From positions 1-33,031 of the IMG/VR virus record IMGVR_UViG_3300045965_000058: DNA of 33,031 bases. One strand, written 5' to 3'. Below are positions 8,227-32,891 of the stretch, in pieces. Every line of letters begins with the position of its first letter. Position 1 is the stretch's first letter. This stretch comes from a virus. Position numbers and translations under genes: made by a program. Under the pieces are notes generated by a model that was not told the origin of the DNA, made no database searches, and was given only the letters and a program-made list of their open reading frames with translations.

Positions 8227-9225
8227 TCATGGATGCGCGACGCCGGTCGCTGGCGCCGAGCAGGCGCTCGCCACGTTGCTGGTATTGACCGCGACTACGG
8301 CGGCCGTGTAGGTCGCGCCGTTATTCAGGCCGGTCAAGGTCGTACTGGGACCGATCCCGACGGCGACAAAGCTACCGCTCGGACAGGGATTCGCGGTGCC
8401 GAGCCCGTAGTAGACCCGATAGCCTGAGAGGTCAGTCAGGACTGAGCCATCGGTATTGTTGGTCGGCGCGCTCCAGGCGGCCACCAGCTTCGAGTTCGTC
8501 GCCGGATTGGCCGGGATGATGAAGTCCTGGAAGGCATGGCCGCCCTCACTGTAATTGCCGGCCGCATCAATCGCCGTGACGCCGAAGTGGGCAATCACGC
8601 TGGCGCCGCTGGCGTCATAAGGAACGACCAGCGACAGGGCATTGGTCGTCGTTTCGCCGATCGCGATATTGGCCGTCCAGTTGTAGTCGCTGACATCCCA
8701 GCTGTAGCGCGAGACGAGGCAGTTGCACGGCTGGTCGAGCGAGGCCGGCCACGTCACGGAATAGCTGACGGATGTCGGCCCGAGGGTCGGCGCGCTGATC
8801 GCCGGCGCGCCGGGCTGGGCGGGCGGCGTCGTATCGCCGGCGGCCACGTTGAACGTGGCGGTCACCGTCTGCGCTGCGGTCATGGTAACCGTACAACTGG
8901 GCGTAGATCCCGAGCACGCGCCAGACCAGCTCGCGAAGGTCGAGCCCGCGGCCTGCGTCGCCGTAATCGTGACGACGTTGCCTGAGGCATAGCCGCTGGT
9001 ACAGCTCGTCCCGCAGTTGATGCTCGGCGGCGCGGTGACCGTGCCCTGGCCCGTGCCGGCTTTCGTGATGGTGAGTGGATAATTCGGAACCGGCGGGAAG
9101 TAGGGCGGCCACCATTGCGTGCTGATCGTCAGGCGATCGCCGTCGTGGACAATCGTCGTACAGCCGCTCACCAGGAGGGCGAGCGCGAGCAGCCCGACGA
9201 GCGCGCGCAGTCTAGGCCGGGTCAA
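8227..9225 (-). CDS. Lipoprotein with InlB-type B-repeat and Fn3-like domains
   Basis: About 332 aa from a TTG at 9225 that overlaps the previous gene by 14 bases; this start puts a clean lipoprotein leader (LLALALLVSGC) at the N-terminus. Residues about 50-125 match the divergent InlB B-repeat pattern (GTVTAPPSINCGTSC, then FASWSGACSG and VTATF), a common bacterial surface module with paired cysteines. Two fibronectin-III-like domains follow (about 130-330; opening DTTPPAQPG and a YRVYYG strand). Such proteins act in adhesion or surface display. No good ribosome site is seen before the TTG, so translational coupling is likely. Its job in a phage late operon is unknown. Confidence 0.7.
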   Translation of the reverse strand: MTRPRLRALVGLLALALLVSGCTTIVHDGDRLTISTQWWPPYFPPVPNYPLTITKAGTGQGTVTAPPSINCGTSCTSGYASGNVVTITATQAAGSTFASWSGACSGSTPSCTVTMTAAQTVTATFNVAAGDTTPPAQPGAPAISAPTLGPTSVSYSVTWPASLDQPCNCLVSRYSWDVSDYNWTANIAIGETTTNALSLVVPYDASGASVIAHFGVTAIDAAGNYSEGGHAFQDFIIPANPATNSKLVAAWSAPTNNTDGSVLTDLSGYRVYYGLGTANPCPSGSFVAVGIGPSTTLTGLNNGATYTAAVVAVNTSNVASACSAPATGVAHP

Positions 9226-9799
9226 CGGAGGTAATCTGCGCGGCGCCGACCGCCGTCGAGAGCGCGCCGGTCCAGGCGGGCGTCGCGTCATCTTCCTTGT
9301 AGACCGTGATCGCCGTCGGTGTCGTACTCCAGCGATTGCGCAGGAGACGAATCGCATTCAGGAGCGACCGGCCCGCTGCCGCAGTGACCGCTTCGACGGC
9401 GCTCATGTCGCGCTTGAAAATCTGATCCGGGATGAGCGCCGCACTCTGGATTCGGTACGGGATATCGAAGCCGAATGTCCCGGCGACGGACACCTGGAGC
9501 GCGACCCAATCCGCGCCGGAGGCAAAAGCGCCGTTGGGGATGTCGAGGCGGTACCACCCTGGCATGTTGGCGGCGGAGATCTCGCGCCATCCTCCCGAGG
9601 CCCACGCGGCGTTGGCCGAGGCCAGCGCGACGAGCGTGATCGGCGTGGGCGCCGCATCGCCCTGGCGATACCACTGGGCGGCGACTGCGGCAGCGGCGAT
9701 CCCGGTCAGCCTGGAATTGTCGACGCTACTGCGGAGCAGGAGCGCGATGCTGACGCCGGTGATATCCGCGACGACGTCGCCGTAGAGTCGATCCGCCAT
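9212..9799 (-). CDS. Tail/baseplate-associated hypothetical protein
   Basis: 195 aa with a GGAGG ribosome site before the ATG. The central part (WREISAANMPGWYRLDIP, then FASGADWVALQVSVAG) and the ending with a two-strand YKEDDATPAW motif resemble beta-domains found in phage proteins encoded next to tail fibres. A helix-rich segment (about 125-155) separates the two parts. It is the first gene after the terminator at 9823-9875. The family is not named with certainty. Confidence 0.6.
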   Translation of the reverse strand: MADRLYGDVVADITGVSIALLLRSSVDNSRLTGIAAAAVAAQWYRQGDAAPTPITLVALASANAAWASGGWREISAANMPGWYRLDIPNGAFASGADWVALQVSVAGTFGFDIPYRIQSAALIPDQIFKRDMSAVEAVTAAAGRSLLNAIRLLRNRWSTTPTAITVYKEDDATPAWTGALSTAVGAAQITSVDPA

Positions 9800-26663: not shown

Positions 26664-26855
26664 CTATTCGGGGTCGGCCTGGCGGACCTGGACGCCGGTC
26701 TTGGGCGCGACCCGGCGCGCCTCCACGAGGCCCTTGTCGACCCATCGCCAGACCGTCGACCGACTGACACCGTGCTCGGCGGCGAGCTTGGACGGCTTGA
26801 GCCATTGACGCTCAGGCTCGCCAGGCTCACACGACGACGAGTCCGTGGTCGGCAT
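26664..26855 (-). CDS. Small helix-turn-helix (excisionase-like) protein between TerL and portal
   Basis: 63 aa from the ATG at 26855, ten bases after GAGGAGG, inside the end of the terminase gene (29-base overlap). Residues 25-52 contain a helix-turn-helix of the MerR/Xis type: LKPSKLAAEHGVSRSTVWRW, then a wing beginning VDKGLVEARRV. Proteins of this form bind DNA, for example as excisionases or packaging helpers. It may bind the tandem 10-bp repeat that follows. A role in packaging or late gene regulation is inferred from location only. Confidence 0.7.
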   Translation of the reverse strand: MPTTDSSSCEPGEPERQWLKPSKLAAEHGVSRSTVWRWVDKGLVEARRVAPKTGVQVRQADPE

Positions 26856-28503
26856 AGGCAGACCCCTCCTCGGGTGCATTGAGCATGAGGCGCGAGAGCG
26901 CGAAGATCAATGCGGAAATACCGTCGATCCGTCCAGTACTTCGGCCCTTGTCGGGCATCATGTTTCCTTGCGCGTCCAGGCGAAGCGACAGGTTGCCGGC
27001 CATCCAATCGAGGCACGGGTGGCCGGGGTGATGGAGCTTGCCCGTTTCGACCAGCGCCAGGAAGTTCTTCGTCGGCTCTGACAGGTGCCGCATGTAGGGC
27101 GGGACCTCGATCACGGTGAACCCATCGGCGGTCAGGTCGGTCCCGATCGAGGCGGCGTTCCACGGATCCAGCCCGACCCCTTCGACCTTGACGACCTGGC
27201 CGAGCTCGCCGAGCCGGCGCCGCACCGCGGCGTAGTCGACGAGCTGCCCCTGGGTCGCCTGGACCTGGCCGTTGGCGATCCAGACATCGAACGGCGCGCC
27301 CCGATCGCGCGCCACCCGCGCGGCGACGTTCCCCTCCGGGATGAAGAAGTACGGAAAGCAGGACACCACGTTGTCCGGATCGGCGAACACCAGGACCAGG
27401 GCCGTCACGTCGAGCTTGACCGAGAGGTCGATGCCGGCGAAGCACGACTGACCCCGGCGCGCCTCGAGGTAGAGCCCCGGCCGGGCGCACGCATTCCAGT
27501 GCGCCGCGTTGACGGCTCGGTTGTCAGGCTGGAGCCACTCGTTCAGGTGGAGCCGGCGAAAGCCGGATTGGTAGAGCGGCAAGGCCTCGGCGCGCATGGC
27601 CTGCTGTTTCAGCGTCTCGACATTGACCGAGACGCCGAAGTTGGGATTCGCCTTGCGCCAGGTCGACTCCTTGCGCCAGTCGTCGCCTTCGTCGGCGCAG
27701 GCGATGAAGGCGAACCAGTCCGCGGCCTCCAGGCCGGCCAGGACTTTCTCCGAGTAGGCGTGTTGCTCGCCGCAGATGGTCGCGCGCTCCCGGCCGGCCG
27801 TCGTGATGTAGAACAGGAGCGGCTGCCGCCGGGCCATCGCGCCGGTTTTCAGCACGTCGACCATGCCCGAGGTCCGGTGCGCGTGGATCTCGTCGACGAT
27901 CGCCCCGTGGACGTCGAGCCCATCGAGGACATCGACGTCGGCGCCGAGCGGTTCCAACTTCTGGCCGGCGACCGTGCGCGTCAACGCCCGCGCGCCCAGG
28001 CCGAGCCGCTTCGCCAGCGCGGGCGTGCGGCTCGCGATCTCCTTCGCCTGTTCCCATACAATCTTGGCCTGGTCGCGCTTCGTCGCCGCGCAGTAGACTT
28101 GGGCGCCGGCTTCCTCATCGAAGAACGCCAGGAGGAGCGCGATGCCGGCCGCGAGCGTGCTTTTCCCGTTCTTCCTCGGGATCTCGATGTACGCCTCTCT
28201 GAACCGGCGCCGGTCGGGGTTGTGGCGCTGGCGCCAGCCCCACAGCGATCCGACGATGAAGGCCTGCCACGGCTCCAGCACGAAGGGCTTGCCGGCCCAC
28301 TCGCCGCGTGTATGGATCAGGTGGCCGAAGAACTCGATGGCCCAGGCGGCCTTGGTCGGCATCCAGCGATAGGGCGCCGTCGCCGGCTTGTACTTCTGCA
28401 GGTCGTCGAGGTGGCGCTGGCAGGCCGAGCGGACGAGCGAGCCGGCGGCGATCTGGCCGGCGACGACCTGGCGCGCGTACCGGGTCGTCGCGTCGGCCTT
28501 CAC
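26827..28503 (-). CDS. terL: Terminase large subunit (TerL)
   Basis: 558 aa; GTG start overlapping the previous stop as GTGA. The ATPase domain has Walker A PRKNGKST (109-116) and Walker B AIVDEIH with Asp204-Glu205. The nuclease domain begins with AGIDLSVKLD (first acidic residue Asp359) and ends near RIDGISALIFALSR, both part of the RNase H-like site. The EPWQAFIVG motif near residue 78 is typical of the HK97/P27-type terminases. It drives DNA translocation into the head and cuts the concatemer. Confidence 0.95.
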   Translation of the reverse strand: MKADATTRYARQVVAGQIAAGSLVRSACQRHLDDLQKYKPATAPYRWMPTKAAWAIEFFGHLIHTRGEWAGKPFVLEPWQAFIVGSLWGWRQRHNPDRRRFREAYIEIPRKNGKSTLAAGIALLLAFFDEEAGAQVYCAATKRDQAKIVWEQAKEIASRTPALAKRLGLGARALTRTVAGQKLEPLGADVDVLDGLDVHGAIVDEIHAHRTSGMVDVLKTGAMARRQPLLFYITTAGRERATICGEQHAYSEKVLAGLEAADWFAFIACADEGDDWRKESTWRKANPNFGVSVNVETLKQQAMRAEALPLYQSGFRRLHLNEWLQPDNRAVNAAHWNACARPGLYLEARRGQSCFAGIDLSVKLDVTALVLVFADPDNVVSCFPYFFIPEGNVAARVARDRGAPFDVWIANGQVQATQGQLVDYAAVRRRLGELGQVVKVEGVGLDPWNAASIGTDLTADGFTVIEVPPYMRHLSEPTKNFLALVETGKLHHPGHPCLDWMAGNLSLRLDAQGNMMPDKGRSTGRIDGISALIFALSRLMLNAPEEGSAYADHGLVVV

Positions 28504-29141
28504 CGGGTACTCGGTGACGGGAAGCTCACGTGCTTCCGGGTGACGATGAACTTCCGTGCGGCACCCGACTCGAGCGTCGCGCCGAGGAGCTCGCCAGCGA
28601 GGAGCACAATCAGGTGATCGTATTCGGCTTGGCCGTTGACCGCGAGCGAGACGAGCGGCCCCTGGCTGTAGAGGCCGGCCATGATGAATTGCTGGTGCGG
28701 CCGGTGCTCGTCATCGGAACAGAACGGCTCGGCCGGCTTGCGCGCCAGGTGCATCCGGCATCCACACGGCCGGTCCTCGTAGACCGTGCAGCGGAGATCC
28801 GGGCCGAGGAGCGGACAGCGGAGATCGAGCCGGCGGTATGGGACGACCGGCGGTTGCTCCTGGCTCCAGAGCGGCGAGGCCTGGAGCCGATCGACACAGC
28901 GCCGCAACTCGCGGAGGACTCGCTCGCGCGGCTCCTCCTCCATCGCGCGGACCCGATCGGCGATGAGCTTCGCCTCCGCGCGCACGGCATAGACCGGCTC
29001 CCAACAGCACCAGGCGCACCCCGCGCCCCGACAGGCGACCGGCGCGCCGGCCTGCTCGGCGCGCGCCTTGAGCTTCTCCGAGGTCGCGTCGACCTGGCGG
29101 TGAATCATCCGGATGAAGGCGTGCGGTCGATGCCGCTTCAC
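28500..29141 (-). CDS. Cysteine-cluster protein (YkgJ-like, Fe/Zn-chelating)
   Basis: 213 aa with a GTG start (GTGA overlap upstream). The N-terminal half has Cys37, Cys42, Cys45 and Cys46 in the C-x4-C-x2-CC pattern of the YkgJ/UPF0153 family (PF03692), and the second half adds Cys109, Cys118, Cys126, Cys128 and Cys141 with His131 (RCPLL, RCTVYEDRPCGC). The known family chelates a metal cluster; its biochemical role is not established. Placed between TerS and TerL, it is unusual for a packaging module. A metal-binding enzyme or DNA/protein-modifying factor is possible but not shown. Confidence 0.8.
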   Translation of the reverse strand: MKRHRPHAFIRMIHRQVDATSEKLKARAEQAGAPVACRGAGCAWCCWEPVYAVRAEAKLIADRVRAMEEEPRERVLRELRRCVDRLQASPLWSQEQPPVVPYRRLDLRCPLLGPDLRCTVYEDRPCGCRMHLARKPAEPFCSDDEHRPHQQFIMAGLYSQGPLVSLAVNGQAEYDHLIVLLAGELLGATLESGAARKFIVTRKHVSFPSPSTR

Positions 29142-29362
29142 GAGTCTCCGATGCCGGGCTCGCGGCCGTCGCGGATCGACTTCGCCGTCCGATGGATTCG
29201 GTCGCTCAACGCCTTCTCGGCGTCGGCCATGTCCTTTTTCTCCTCCGCATGATCCTTCCGCATGTCGGCGAGCTCGAGCGTCAACCGCGCGACCAGGAGC
29301 CCGGCGCGCCGTTTCTCCTCATCGGTTAGCGGGATCAATTCGAGTTGCCCTTGTTCCGCCAT
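29138..29362 (-). CDS. Small helical hypothetical protein
   Basis: 74 aa from ATG at 29362, with GGAGG upstream; the frame's upstream part lies in another gene. Nearly all of it is a charged amphipathic helix (EEKRRAGLLVARLTLELADM, then DAEKALSDRIHRTAKSI), probably a coiled coil. It overlaps both neighbours. Function is unknown. Confidence 0.6.
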   Translation of the reverse strand: MAEQGQLELIPLTDEEKRRAGLLVARLTLELADMRKDHAEEKKDMADAEKALSDRIHRTAKSIRDGREPGIGDS

Positions 29363-29477
29363 GTGATGACCTCCACTTCGGTATCCAGTCAAAGAACAGT
29401 GCGGCGAGCCCGCACAGCAGCCCCATGACCCCGAAGGCCAGCGCGGCCACACAGATGACACGATTCGGCCAATCCAC
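29319..29477 (-). CDS. Small single-helix membrane protein
   Basis: 52 aa from a GTG at 29477, preceded by GGA at about 8 bases; the TerS stop is 20 bases upstream. The hydrophobic run VICVAALAFGVMGLLCGLAA (residues 7-26) then LFFDW is a clear transmembrane segment, followed by a basic tail. It overlaps the next gene by 44 bases in a different frame. A holin or membrane partner is conceivable, but only the membrane segment is evident. Confidence 0.45.
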   Translation of the reverse strand: MDWPNRVICVAALAFGVMGLLCGLAALFFDWIPKWRSSHGGTRATRIDPANR

Positions 29478-29497: not shown

Positions 29498-30007
29498 TCA
29501 TCGCTTGCCCCCCAGGAAGACCTCGAAGGGATCGGCTTCCGTCGGCGGCTCGGCGTGGATCTTCGCTTGTGTGATCGGCGTGAGCCCGAATTCGCCGAGG
29601 AGGTTCTTACACAGGGTCGCGAGCCGCTCGCTTCGCCGGATGAGCGGGTTCTCGCGGACCCGGCGCCGGATGACGCGACCGGCCTTGTCGAGCAACTCGT
29701 CGACGACGAGGTTGCGAAACTGCATCTCCCGCAACTGCGCGCGGACCCGGCCGTAGTCGGCAAGCGCTTGCGCCAGGAGCCCGAGCGCCTCGCCGTGCGC
29801 CGGGCTCAAGACCTTCACACGCTCGAGCCGTTCGCACAGTACCGTCCAGTGCCCGAACGCGACCTCATCGGCGCGAAGCTCCTCGGTCGGTTCTGGCCGG
29901 CCGAGCTCGACTTTCGGCTCGCGCTGACGATTCCGCGGCCGCGTGCCCTGGAGGAGATGCAGCGCCGTCGGCTTGCGCGGCCGGCCGCTCCGGTGATTGC
30001 CGGCCAT
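29498..30007 (-). CDS. terS: Terminase small subunit, P27-like
   Basis: 169 aa. It begins with the basic GRPRKPTALHLLQGTRPRNR segment (in part: RKPTALHLLQGT), the hallmark of P27-family small terminases (PF05119), and ends with TEADPFEVFLGGKR. The middle holds helices for oligomerisation (HGEALGLLAQALADYGRVRA). It recognises phage DNA and recruits TerL. Start ATG overlaps the ParB-like stop as TGATG. Confidence 0.92.
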   Translation of the reverse strand: MAGNHRSGRPRKPTALHLLQGTRPRNRQREPKVELGRPEPTEELRADEVAFGHWTVLCERLERVKVLSPAHGEALGLLAQALADYGRVRAQLREMQFRNLVVDELLDKAGRVIRRRVRENPLIRRSERLATLCKNLLGEFGLTPITQAKIHAEPPTEADPFEVFLGGKR

Positions 30008-30549
30008 CAGGTCGACACGATGAGCCGGGCCGGCCCGTAGTGGGTGACGTTCTTCGCCATGAGGTCGAGGAAGTCTTGTCGCGAGAGGTCAGAGAGGCGG
30101 AAGACTTCCTCGCCGCGCATGCCGAGCTCCTGCCCGATCTCGTCGACCGTCTTGCCGGCGCCGAGCAGCCGCTTGACGATCGCTTTCATCGGCCCCAGCT
30201 GGTGGACGCCGCGCGCCCGGTTATGGGTGATCGTGCCGTACACGTTCTTCGCCTCGTCCTCATGCTGGACGACGACCACCGGGACCTGGCCGTTGAGCAT
30301 CGTCCAGAGCGGCTCGCGGCCTGCGACGACCCAGCGGTGGAAGCCATCGATGATGACCAGATCCTCCGTCACGACAATCGGCAGCGTCCAGCCGTTCACG
30401 AGGATGGAGCGCTGGAGCAGCACGAGATTGTCTTCCAGTACAAGATTCGGGTTGTAGTCATTGGGCCGGATCGCGTCGCGCGGCACGAGCCGCGCGTTGA
30501 GTACGGGTAGCGCGAGCAAGCCTGTCGGGGTCTGCGGCGAGAGTGGCAT
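30007..30549 (-). CDS. ParB/sulfiredoxin-fold protein (IbrB-like)
   Basis: 180 aa from ATG at 30549 (a TTG 21 bases upstream is an alternative). The N-terminal half is a ParB-type domain: a DAIRPNDYNPN strand-loop, QRSILVNGWTLPIVV, then IDGFHRW at 67-73, equivalent to the GERR-type nucleotide-binding motif. ITHNRARGVH at 107-116 is typical of ParB-like proteins paired with PAPS reductases. A helix-turn-helix-like region follows (about 135-158). It overlaps the PAPS-reductase end by 92 bases in another frame. The family can be a CTPase, kinase or nuclease; the activity here is unknown. Confidence 0.85.
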   Translation of the reverse strand: MPLSPQTPTGLLALPVLNARLVPRDAIRPNDYNPNLVLEDNLVLLQRSILVNGWTLPIVVTEDLVIIDGFHRWVVAGREPLWTMLNGQVPVVVVQHEDEAKNVYGTITHNRARGVHQLGPMKAIVKRLLGAGKTVDEIGQELGMRGEEVFRLSDLSRQDFLDLMAKNVTHYGPARLIVST

Positions 30550-31642
30550 CCCATCCAACCTTGACTCCAATGGCGCGCAGCGTCCGGAGCTTCGGGTCGC
30601 CGGCCTTGAGTCCGTCGAACAGCATCCGGTAATGGACCGGCCCCAGCTGCAACATGAACGTCATCACATGCCGCCGATAGGTCTCGGCGACCTTCCGCGC
30701 GAGCTCTGAGCCGAAGTGCGCGGGAATGTCCTCCAACATCTCCAGCACCCGCGCCTGGTAATCGATCGCCTCCCCCATCGCGGCCTCGGCCTTGCGCCGC
30801 TGCCCGGTGCGGCGGCGGAACATCTCCGAATCCCAGTAGAGCGAGACGAGATACGCCGCCGGCTCCCGCCGGAGGATCGCCTCCATGAGCGCCGGGTAGT
30901 ACTCGGAGATCCGCGCCAGGATCGGCGCGGTGTCCACGCTGAAAAACTGGGAGATCCGCAAGCGAGGCCGCGCGACGCCCAACTGCCACATGTACCGGTA
31001 CGCATCGGGCACCTGGATCTGGCGTTGCGCGAGGTAGAGCCAGACGTCATCATCGGTCCAATCGTAGATGGGATAGATGCGCGGATGATAGCGCGCGGCC
31101 TCATCGCGCACACCAGCGACCGAGTAGTAGCGCTGGACGCTCTCGGCCGTCCGGAGCCCGACCATGTGTACGCCATCATTCAGCCGCGCGAGAAATGCTT
31201 GATACGTGTCGAGACGCGGCTTGAGGTAGGGATGCGATCGGATCGCGAACGGCGGCGGCTCGCGGACCCAGACGGCCGCTTTCGTGCGATCCCAACAGAT
31301 GAACGACTCATCGCATTCGAGTTGGTTCAGGCAGGAATAGTGGCGCACCTCCAGCGCGTACCAATCGAAGCGTACGCCGAGGTCGAGACACTTCGCGCGC
31401 CAGTCGAGGACCGTCTGCACCACGCACGGAAAGACGGCTTCCTCGTCGATGAACTCGACTCGGAGTTGGGAGAGATCGATGTCGCCGCGTACGCCGAGCG
31501 CGAGCGTAAGGTCCAGGAGCACCAGCGAATCCTTGCCGCCCGAGAACGAGCAGTAGACCGGGAGCTTGTTGGCGAAGATCGATCGAATGCGATCGCGCGC
31601 CGCGTGGAGGACATCGACCTCGAGCTCGCGGACCGCGATCAT
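30458..31642 (-). CDS. PAPS-reductase-family PP-loop protein (IbrA/DndC-like)
   Basis: 394 aa from ATG at 31642, which overlaps the upstream ParB stop as ATGA. An intact PP-loop, SGGKDS, lies at residues 34-39 (Ser34-Ser39), so ATP or PAPS binding is likely. Later motifs: GLRTAESVQRYYS and PIYDWTDDDVWLYL near 180-210, characteristic of the phosphoadenosine phosphosulfate reductase superfamily and its IbrA- and DndC-like branches. The C-terminal 150 residues are helical and extra to the core. Sulfate reduction is unlikely for a lone phage gene; known relatives include DndC, which acts in DNA phosphorothioation. The substrate is unknown. Confidence 0.88.
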   Translation of the reverse strand: MIAVRELEVDVLHAARDRIRSIFANKLPVYCSFSGGKDSLVLLDLTLALGVRGDIDLSQLRVEFIDEEAVFPCVVQTVLDWRAKCLDLGVRFDWYALEVRHYSCLNQLECDESFICWDRTKAAVWVREPPPFAIRSHPYLKPRLDTYQAFLARLNDGVHMVGLRTAESVQRYYSVAGVRDEAARYHPRIYPIYDWTDDDVWLYLAQRQIQVPDAYRYMWQLGVARPRLRISQFFSVDTAPILARISEYYPALMEAILRREPAAYLVSLYWDSEMFRRRTGQRRKAEAAMGEAIDYQARVLEMLEDIPAHFGSELARKVAETYRRHVMTFMLQLGPVHYRMLFDGLKAGDPKLRTLRAIGVKVGWDATLAADPDRLARATRTQRAARAARRDPAQ

Positions 31643-32220
31643 GTACCCTTCGGGATCAGGTGGCCGCACTTGGGACAGACGATCCCCTCGGCCGAGCTCG
31701 GTGTGTACTGATTCGTCGGCGAGCTCGCGCCGGGATCAGTGCTGCCGGGCGGAACCTGCTGGCCGGCCGTCTGCTGCTGAAGCTCCGGCGACATCGCCCC
31801 GTAGGCGCGCACCGCGGCGGCCTCGACATCGGCGCTCGTCGCCGTGAGCCGGCGCAGGATCTCGGCATCGTAGCCGGGCACGTCCAGGTCATCGAGCGAG
31901 CGGACCAGCGACATCACCGAGTCGTAGTCATCGATGCCGAGATCGAAGACTCGATTGTCGGCGAGCATGAGCTTGCGCTTCTGCGTCTCAGTCAGGCCGG
32001 TCACTCGATAGGCCGTGATCCGGTCCCGGCCGAGACGCTTGAACACTTCCACCAGGCCATTGCCGGCGAGGACCTCGCCGGTTTCGTCGATGACGATCGT
32101 CCGGATCTGGCCGAACATCTCGACGGAGCGCTGGAGCTCCCGTAACTGAAGCTCCGGGTGCCGGCGCGCGTTGAGCGGCGGCGGATGCGTCTCGGCGATC
32201 GCCACGTCTTCGAGGTTCAT
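31639..32220 (-). CDS. ParB-like protein with C-terminal cysteine knuckle
   Basis: 193 aa. Residues 15-95 form a ParB/sulfiredoxin domain: NARRHPELQLRELQRSVEMF with GQIRTIVID, LAGNGLVEVFKRLG (51-64, the GxG nucleotide motif) and LTETQKRKLMLADNR. Unlike the ParB at 30007 it has the AGNG form and no HNRARG segment, so the two are from different subfamilies. A Pro/Gln/Ser linker leads to a C-terminal CPKCGH knuckle (Cys182, Cys185, His187). It overlaps both neighbours by four bases. It may present nucleic acid or nucleotide to the PP-loop enzyme; that is inferred from gene order. Confidence 0.85.
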   Translation of the reverse strand: MNLEDVAIAETHPPPLNARRHPELQLRELQRSVEMFGQIRTIVIDETGEVLAGNGLVEVFKRLGRDRITAYRVTGLTETQKRKLMLADNRVFDLGIDDYDSVMSLVRSLDDLDVPGYDAEILRRLTATSADVEAAAVRAYGAMSPELQQQTAGQQVPPGSTDPGASSPTNQYTPSSAEGIVCPKCGHLIPKGT

Positions 32221-32891
32221 CGCACGCCCGGCTCCGCGATGATCGTCGCCGTGAGCATCTGGTGAACCTCGTCGGTCGGCCCCACTTCGCTATCGGGATG
32301 ACAGACGATGATCCGCATGGCCTCCTTGTCAGTCGTGAAGGCGTGGAGGACATCGGTCGGAATCATGAAGATCGAGCCCGGCTTCATCTCGACCTTACGG
32401 CCATCGGTGAGACACCAGCCGCGCCCATCGACGATGAGCCCGACCCGATGCGACGGATGCGTGTGCGCCGTCTGCTTCGTGCCGGCCGGAAAGAATAGGC
32501 AGTTGAGACACGGATCGCCCTGCTTCGGCGGCATGACGATCCCCGTATCGGTACACCCATCGATGTACTGGAGGCGGCCCTGCTGCTCGATCGGCCCGCC
32601 GACCGAGAACAGCCCCGCGTAGCCTTTGATCGTCACGACCAGCGCCCGACCGTTCTGCGCTTCGATCCTCGCCGGCGACGGTATGCAGCCGTACCATCCG
32701 GCCTGGAGTCGGTGACTCGCGCGGCGCCGCGTCACGAGGATCGTGCCACTCAGGACCCCGATGAAGGCCGTGCCTCGGTTGATGGGCGCCGTGGCGTGGC
32801 CGCTCAGTCCAACGACCGACAGCACGTCATCCGCGTAGGCTTCGACGTTGTCGAACGGCAGCATGGCGAATCGCTTGGGGTCTCCGATCAT
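32217..32891 (-). CDS. Bicupin protein
   Basis: 224 aa from ATG at 32891, with AGGAGG 6 bases upstream; the longer frame lacks a ribosome site. The C-terminal domain (about 125-205) is a cupin with the metal-binding pattern TAHTHPSHRVG (His143, His145, His148) and a later PTDVLHAF with His183. The first half (about 15-95) is a second, degenerate cupin without obvious metal ligands. Cupins include dioxygenases, isomerases and small-molecule-binding proteins. It is the first gene of the leftward operon and overlaps the ParB start. No substrate can be named. Confidence 0.8.
   Translation of the reverse strand: MIGDPKRFAMLPFDNVEAYADDVLSVVGLSGHATAPINRGTAFIGVLSGTILVTRRRASHRLQAGWYGCIPSPARIEAQNGRALVVTIKGYAGLFSVGGPIEQQGRLQYIDGCTDTGIVMPPKQGDPCLNCLFFPAGTKQTAHTHPSHRVGLIVDGRGWCLTDGRKVEMKPGSIFMIPTDVLHAFTTDKEAMRIIVCHPDSEVGPTDEVHQMLTATIIAEPGVR

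Follow-up and report, generated by a model that had tools for sequence, protein, structure and literature searches.

The closest described relatives of the phage gene cassette reported here are ybdN and ybdM of E. coli, homologues of which are called IbrA-IbrB in a Klebsiella record. A paper that names both YbdN and YbdM shows only that CitR regulates them (PMC9068703), and phage papers name IbrA/IbrB without giving a function (PMC4490671, PMC8813620, PMC4541368). In other systems ParB-superfamily proteins, such as DndB and DpdB, are partners of DNA-modifying enzymes (PMC12839542, PMC12704722, PMC11662687). DndB belongs to the ParB superfamily, and C280 is essential in DndC (PMC11662687); in the Dpd 7-deazaguanine system the ParB-like ATPase DpdB partners the base-modifying enzyme DpdA (PMC12839542); and phage carboxymethylcytosine (CmoX/CmoY) loci, which involve an AMP-forming ligase and a small-molecule amine, often encode ParBc proteins (PMC12783734). 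Here we describe a cassette encoding a PP-loop enzyme of the PAPS-reductase superfamily, two ParB-fold proteins (ParB1 and ParB2) and a cupin, located in front of the terminase genes of the virus record IMGVR_UViG_3300045965_000058 (33,031 bases, hereafter the window).

Judging from alignment, the PP-loop-ParB1 pair is homologous and syntenic to ybdN-ybdM (ibrA-ibrB). The PP-loop protein is 28% identical to YbdN over 349 residues (pairwise E=8e-28) and ParB1 is 41% identical to YbdM over 147 residues (E=5e-30). Both pairs fall into PHROGs 2302 and 2159, and the cellular genes have the same order as the phage genes, overlapping and with the ParB partner immediately downstream. The link to IbrA/IbrB that an earlier note had drawn from the letters of this DNA alone is thus one of true homology. 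The phage cassette differs from IbrA/IbrB in having the additional ParB2 with a CPxCG motif, a symporter plus second PP-loop protein or a cupin, and a site before terminase. The C-terminal DUF3440 domain (PF11922) was detected in YbdN (3e-32) and in one cassette member (L082, 7e-13), while the protein of the window gave no match to it at E values up to 0.1. The Dnd/Ssp systems (DndC, DndB) likewise place a PAPS-reductase-superfamily PP-loop enzyme beside a ParB-superfamily protein, although the phage enzyme scores below the DndC cut-offs and does not have family-wide Fe-S cysteines. The Dpd enzyme is a TGT and not a PP-loop protein, and no TGT was recognised by eye among the neighbour clusters of the cassette. 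The ligase of the CmoX/CmoY loci is distinct from the PP-loop protein, and the conserved neighbours of the cassette, viewed without running the corresponding models, included no recognisable carboxymethyltransferase. BrxP of type 4 BREX is also a PAPS-reductase-like PP-loop protein (PADLOC match 3e-10) and has extra domains (PMC12839542), whereas the cassette protein has a helical C-terminal extension and ParB partners.

The features of the locus are listed in Table 1. They are transcribed in the order cupin, ParB2, PP-loop, ParB1, terminase small subunit (TerS), two short genes, terminase large subunit (TerL), portal and capsid. As the earlier note had described, the four genes before terminase overlap. 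The cupin and ParB2 genes share a 4-nucleotide ATGA at 32217-32220, ParB2 and the PP-loop gene share another ATGA if translation of the latter begins at its conserved ATG (31642), the PP-loop and ParB1 genes overlap by 92 nucleotides, and the stop codon of ParB1 overlaps the start codon of TerS in a TGATG at 30007. The TGATG together with the ATGA overlaps upstream indicates that cassette and TerS are one translational unit, and from these junctions we read cupin-ParB2-PP-loop-ParB1 as an operon translationally coupled to TerS.

Table 1. Genes of the cassette and of the adjoining terminase region in the window.
Feature	Position	Strand	Description
Cupin gene	32217-32891	minus	224 aa, ATG at 32891; Cupin_2 E=1.7e-12; accessory
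ParB2 gene	31639-32220	minus	193 aa, ParB fold, C-terminal CPxCG knuckle; phrog_620 E=8e-38; core
PP-loop gene	30458-31642, or to 31669 with alternative GTG start	minus	394-403 aa; PF01507 E=5.5e-13, phrog_2302 E=7e-71; core
ParB1 gene	30007-30549	minus	180 aa, ParB fold plus helix-turn-helix, IbrB/YbdM-like; phrog_2159 E=2e-58; core
TerS (P27 type)	29498-30007	minus	Terminase_4 2e-10, phrog_83 3e-19
Two short genes	29138-29461, 28500-29141		between TerS and TerL; not part of the cassette finding
TerL (HK97 type)	26827-28503	minus	TerL_ATPase 6e-35, TerL_nuclease 1e-40

The cassette recurs in hundreds of other phages, among them the cultured Faecalibacterium phage FP_Taranis (NC_047914) and phage vB_RanS_PJN03 (ON245412). 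Each of the four proteins is 40-70% identical to its counterparts in other phages with the same gene order, which excludes chance as the cause of the grouping. We collected relatives from IMG/VR, viral contigs and 84,980 species genomes; those from species genomes are mostly Clostridia prophages, with others in Treponema, Bacteroidales and Selenomonadaceae. All 80 IMG/VR loci fetched by the PP-loop protein kept ParB1 and nearly all kept ParB2, with the order unchanged. After removal of PP-loop proteins at least 95% identical to one another, the complete ParB2-PP-loop-ParB1 triad was present in 211 of the 225 non-redundant loci with enough flank. Because these loci had been picked by similarity, reverse searches from the other genes were run as a check. 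A PP-loop gene adjoined ParB1 in 70 of 72 loci found with ParB1 (the other two are cut at contig ends) and was present in 68 of 74 loci found with the symporter and in 74 of 77 found with the cupin, counts that are not fully independent since loci are shared between the scans. A search seeded with PJN03 gave one partial locus only. The fixed core of the cassette is thus ParB2-PP-loop-ParB1. The four-gene neighbourhood of the earlier note recurs in phages as far as this triad is concerned, while the cupin is an alternative accessory. Of the outcomes that the earlier note had named as refuting its reading, those open to analysis here did not occur.

The position before terminase is general, as TerL lies within 4.5 kb downstream of the cassette in 168 of 187 testable loci. 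The neighbouring TerL proteins fall into at least four families, namely GpA, HK97-type, Terminase_6 and a further one matched by phrog_2. When mapped onto a tree built from 138 PP-loop proteins, the TerL family changed 32 times, compared with 44-57 times when shuffled. With so many changes, the link between cassette and packaging is not due to inheritance with one terminase, and a core that stays intact and terminase-adjacent through at least 32 of them must matter to these phages. As a separate observation, 39 symporter-class loci (for example L060:6218-6865) encode, some 4 kb ahead of the PP-loop gene, a phrog_1558 protein with a C-terminal helix-turn-helix, and this protein is a candidate late-gene regulator of the cassette operon.

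Most relatives have two further genes upstream of ParB2. One encodes a Na+:solute symporter (PF00474, phrog_20720), and the other a second PP-loop protein (PP2; phrog_424) that is shorter than the first and in which SGGKDS is conserved. The symporter was found in 246 loci and the cupin in 86, with 0 loci containing both, and we rejected the cupin as a core component given that it is one of two mutually exclusive accessories. Accessory type changed only twice on the PP-loop tree compared with 20-31 times when shuffled. The window lies in a clade of 10 entries, 9 of which have the cupin, nested inside a larger symporter-dominated clade. Examined for a likely substrate, the symporter family scores at superfamily level only, being closest to PanF and PutP and far below the cut-offs, and its homologue is shortened in FP_Taranis-type loci. 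Cupin genes occur both in the window clade and among a large group of aquatic loci, mostly in the order ParB2-cupin-PP-loop-ParB1. A single-sequence search recovered 1 cupin relative versus 122 by alignment search, and the cupin had no match in the phage collection. Of the bicupin read earlier from the sequence, a metal-cupin fold was confirmed for the C-terminal half only. H143, H145 and H183, the predicted metal ligands, follow the HxH plus downstream H pattern of metal cupins and, like Q140 and R149, are 100% conserved in 46 non-redundant homologues; the PDB profile matches are generic cupins.

A class-II glutamine amidotransferase (GAT) with its catalytic Cys2 intact directly follows the PP2 gene in three arrangements: symporter-PP2-GAT-ParB2-PP-loop-ParB1 (L180, L206, L225), PP-loop-ParB1-cupin-PP2-GAT-TerS-TerL (L329, L330, L332, L333) and ParB2-cupin-PP2-GAT-PP-loop-ParB1 (L513, L523). 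Glutamine-dependent PP-loop amidotransferases, e.g. asparagine synthetase B, show this pairing. The GAT beside the second PP-loop protein points to nitrogen chemistry, evidence that is suggestive and not conclusive because amidotransferases of this type are mostly encoded elsewhere in phages, outside the cassette.

The earlier reading of an intact SGGKDS PP-loop held, and the loop is conserved in relatives. Over 135 non-redundant (nr80) homologues we found conservation of at least 97% at S43, G45, K46 and D47 of this loop, at D75-E76-E77, W103, R136, G171, R173, E176-S177 and R180, and in YDW, DxW and GDxK motifs. No cysteine is universal in the family. Column 105 is Cys in 94% of homologues and Ala in the window protein, and C82, C113 and C125 are kept by the window protein and by those of the symporter clade but not beyond them, being absent from FP_Taranis-like loci and most aquatic cupin loci. 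The homologues have no conserved C-terminal cysteine of the CysH catalytic kind. The AlphaFold2 model of the protein (mean pLDDT 85) has the PP-loop/HUP fold, with Foldseek matches to CysH, NcsA, FAD synthase, GMP synthetase, LarE and TilS, the tRNA thiolase NcsA being the top match; its C-terminus is a helical extension that has no PDB match. An SGGxDS loop in a HUP fold is that of an N-type ATP pyrophosphatase, and the fold matches include AMP-forming PP-loop enzymes. In profile searches the protein reached 17.1 bits against the DndC model TIGR03183 (cut-off 290) and 12.9 bits against the PAPS-reductase model TIGR02057 (cut-off 254), and it was also far below the cut-off of the CysD model. 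One prophage encodes another PAPS-reductase-like protein, with several cysteines, some 8.5 kb upstream of its cassette (L054:511-1470).

Both ParB proteins have the ParB/Srx NTP-binding fold, as indicated by the structural model of ParB1, the profile of ParB2 and conserved nucleotide-binding boxes (DGFHRW/THNRARG and GNGL/ADN). The model of ParB1 (pLDDT 85), whose motifs are DGFHRW and THNRARGxH, resembles ParB, Noc and KorB, with an NTP-binding domain plus helix-turn-helix, and matches ParB-CDP/CTP structures with E ~1e-5 and probability 1.00. The ParB2 profile matches Spo0J/ParB chains in the PDB (Spo0J E=7e-4), i.e. the ParB N-domain. Over 135 nr80 homologues its C-terminal CPxCG is 97-99% conserved; of the CPKCGH knuckle noted earlier, the final H is not kept and is mostly E. 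A canonical plasmid or phage partition protein was considered and rejected, as ParB1 scored 15.3 bits against TIGR00180 (cut-off 58 bits) and ParB2 gave no match. In aquatic PP-loop-ParB1-cupin-PP2-GAT loci a different ParB-like protein that has no Pfam match occupies the place of ParB2 (L332:3794-4429, MNIRNRVKSLRMVPASDLRPNPKNW...).

A catalytic PP-loop enzyme and two DNA-type ParBs occur together with a gene for small-molecule supply and, at times, an amidotransferase, and all are linked to packaging; the best explanation for this combination is a late DNA-modification module. The cassette may well be a late-operon module that modifies nucleic acid chemically, most likely phage DNA shortly before packaging. 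Nucleic-acid or nucleotide modification at this stage was also what the earlier note had suggested; nucleic-acid modification is still the best reading. We infer that the PP-loop enzyme (IbrA/YbdN family) would use ATP to adenylate a carbonyl or carboxylate, after which an amine or ammonia would displace the adenylate, installing a small-molecule or amide group. The second PP-loop protein and, in some lineages, the GAT would share this adenylation-amidation chemistry. The building block could be a small molecule imported by the symporter in most relatives, and in the window phage and its kin made or altered by the metal cupin. ParB1 and ParB2 would act as NTP-binding clamps or switches and recruit the enzyme to DNA, a role that has been proposed for DpdB, itself ParB-like, and the CPxCG tail of ParB2 may add a zinc contact.

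More tentatively, it is possible that the cassette is a previously undescribed, widespread phage DNA-hypermodification system in which ATP-dependent PP-loop chemistry adds an imported or cupin-derived small molecule, or amide nitrogen, to phage DNA, with two ParB-fold switches in control and coupling to packaging. We found no account of an operon with symporter or cupin, ParB, PP-loop and ParB genes in the literature, subscription journals being mostly outside the search. If the hypermodification reading is true, it would also show what the ancestral activity of the ybdNM and ibrAB genes of E. coli was; since the central pair is homologous to these genes, an answer from the phages would probably assign them too. 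Symporter, second PP-loop protein, cupin and amidotransferase provide a first outline of a pathway, with a testable chemical prediction.

Several observations weigh against modification of DNA. The cellular ybdNM genes have no assigned biochemistry, and the one role known for ibrAB is to activate prophage genes. The fold of the ParB1 model resembles partition proteins or regulators that bind DNA no less than it does modification partners. The site before terminase may be a mere hotspot for accessory genes. The amidotransferase occurs in few cassette loci, and 49 of 64 phage loci with such an enzyme have no cassette gene. In the window, which ends about 140 nucleotides upstream of the cupin start, there is no second PP-loop protein, symporter or amidotransferase. 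We know of no modified base in any phage with the cassette, and we found no experiment on it in the literature.

The chief alternative is regulation of the IbrAB kind, followed by sulfur transfer and modification of another substrate. ParB1 would bind DNA while the PP-loop protein serves as a nucleotide or sulfur sensor, so that late (packaging) or host genes are switched on. The homology and synteny with ybdN-ybdM/ibrA-ibrB, the likeness of ParB1 to ParB, Noc and the repressor KorB, the place of the operon at the start of the late region, and the naming of IbrAB for the activation of prophage eib genes in the title of Sandt et al. 2002 all agree with such a role. However, regulation leaves unexplained both the strict conservation of the catalytic SGGKDS site and the presence of a second PP-loop enzyme, symporter, cupin and amidotransferase, and the cassette sits inside the operon that it would need to activate. 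We consider it unlikely, though deserving of attention. Thiolation of the DNA backbone or a base by a DndC- or NcsA-like sulfur transferase, the DndC-type chemistry raised in the earlier note, would fit membership of the PAPS-reductase superfamily, the top structural match, weak PADLOC matches to BrxP and DndC (1e-5), the ParB-superfamily assignment of DndB (PMC11662687) and the C82/C113/C125 trio in the larger clade of the window. This trio is not kept family-wide, the residue at column 105 is replaced in the window itself, the DndC score is far below its cut-off, and no cysteine desulfurase recurs among neighbour clusters inspected by eye and not scanned. As no cysteine that could serve an Fe-S cluster or a persulfide is universal, sulfur transfer and PAPS reduction are poorly supported, and the amidotransferase points to nitrogen; we regard thiolation as improbable.

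A module that modifies a target other than DNA (tRNA, a protein, a lipid or a small molecule), or one that makes a cofactor, its late-operon place being a convenience, seems to us equally improbable. Transfer RNA and free metabolites are common substrates of PP-loop enzymes, as for TilS, NcsA, GMP synthetase, LarE and FAD synthase among the matches, and symporter and cupin hint at a small-molecule pathway, but this leaves aside two ParB-fold proteins, one with a helix-turn-helix, and constant linkage to packaging genes of several unrelated kinds. A true auxiliary metabolic gene for sulfur assimilation, i.e. a PAPS reductase accompanied by partition-like ParB genes, is very improbable. It would agree with phage annotations, which name the cassette genes 'PAPS reductase' and 'partition protein', and with a Clostridium clostridioforme prophage in which both PP-loop PHROGs were classed as host metabolism (PMC11318856). 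The PAPS-reductase score and the missing C-terminal catalytic cysteine speak against it, sulfate reduction involves no pair of ParB proteins, and no other sulfate-assimilation gene recurs among the neighbour clusters, as inspected by eye.

Elsewhere in the window, a large serine recombinase (57-1886; Resolvase, Recombinase and zinc-ribbon domains) indicates that the virus is probably a temperate phage. The product of 8227-9357, probably a tail or surface-binding protein, combines an InlB-type B-repeat (PF18998) with a likely fibronectin-III domain. The short gene at 28500-29141, which overlaps the start of TerL, encodes a CxxCxxCC-family protein (PF03692, E=1e-6), for which a place between the terminase subunits is an odd site.

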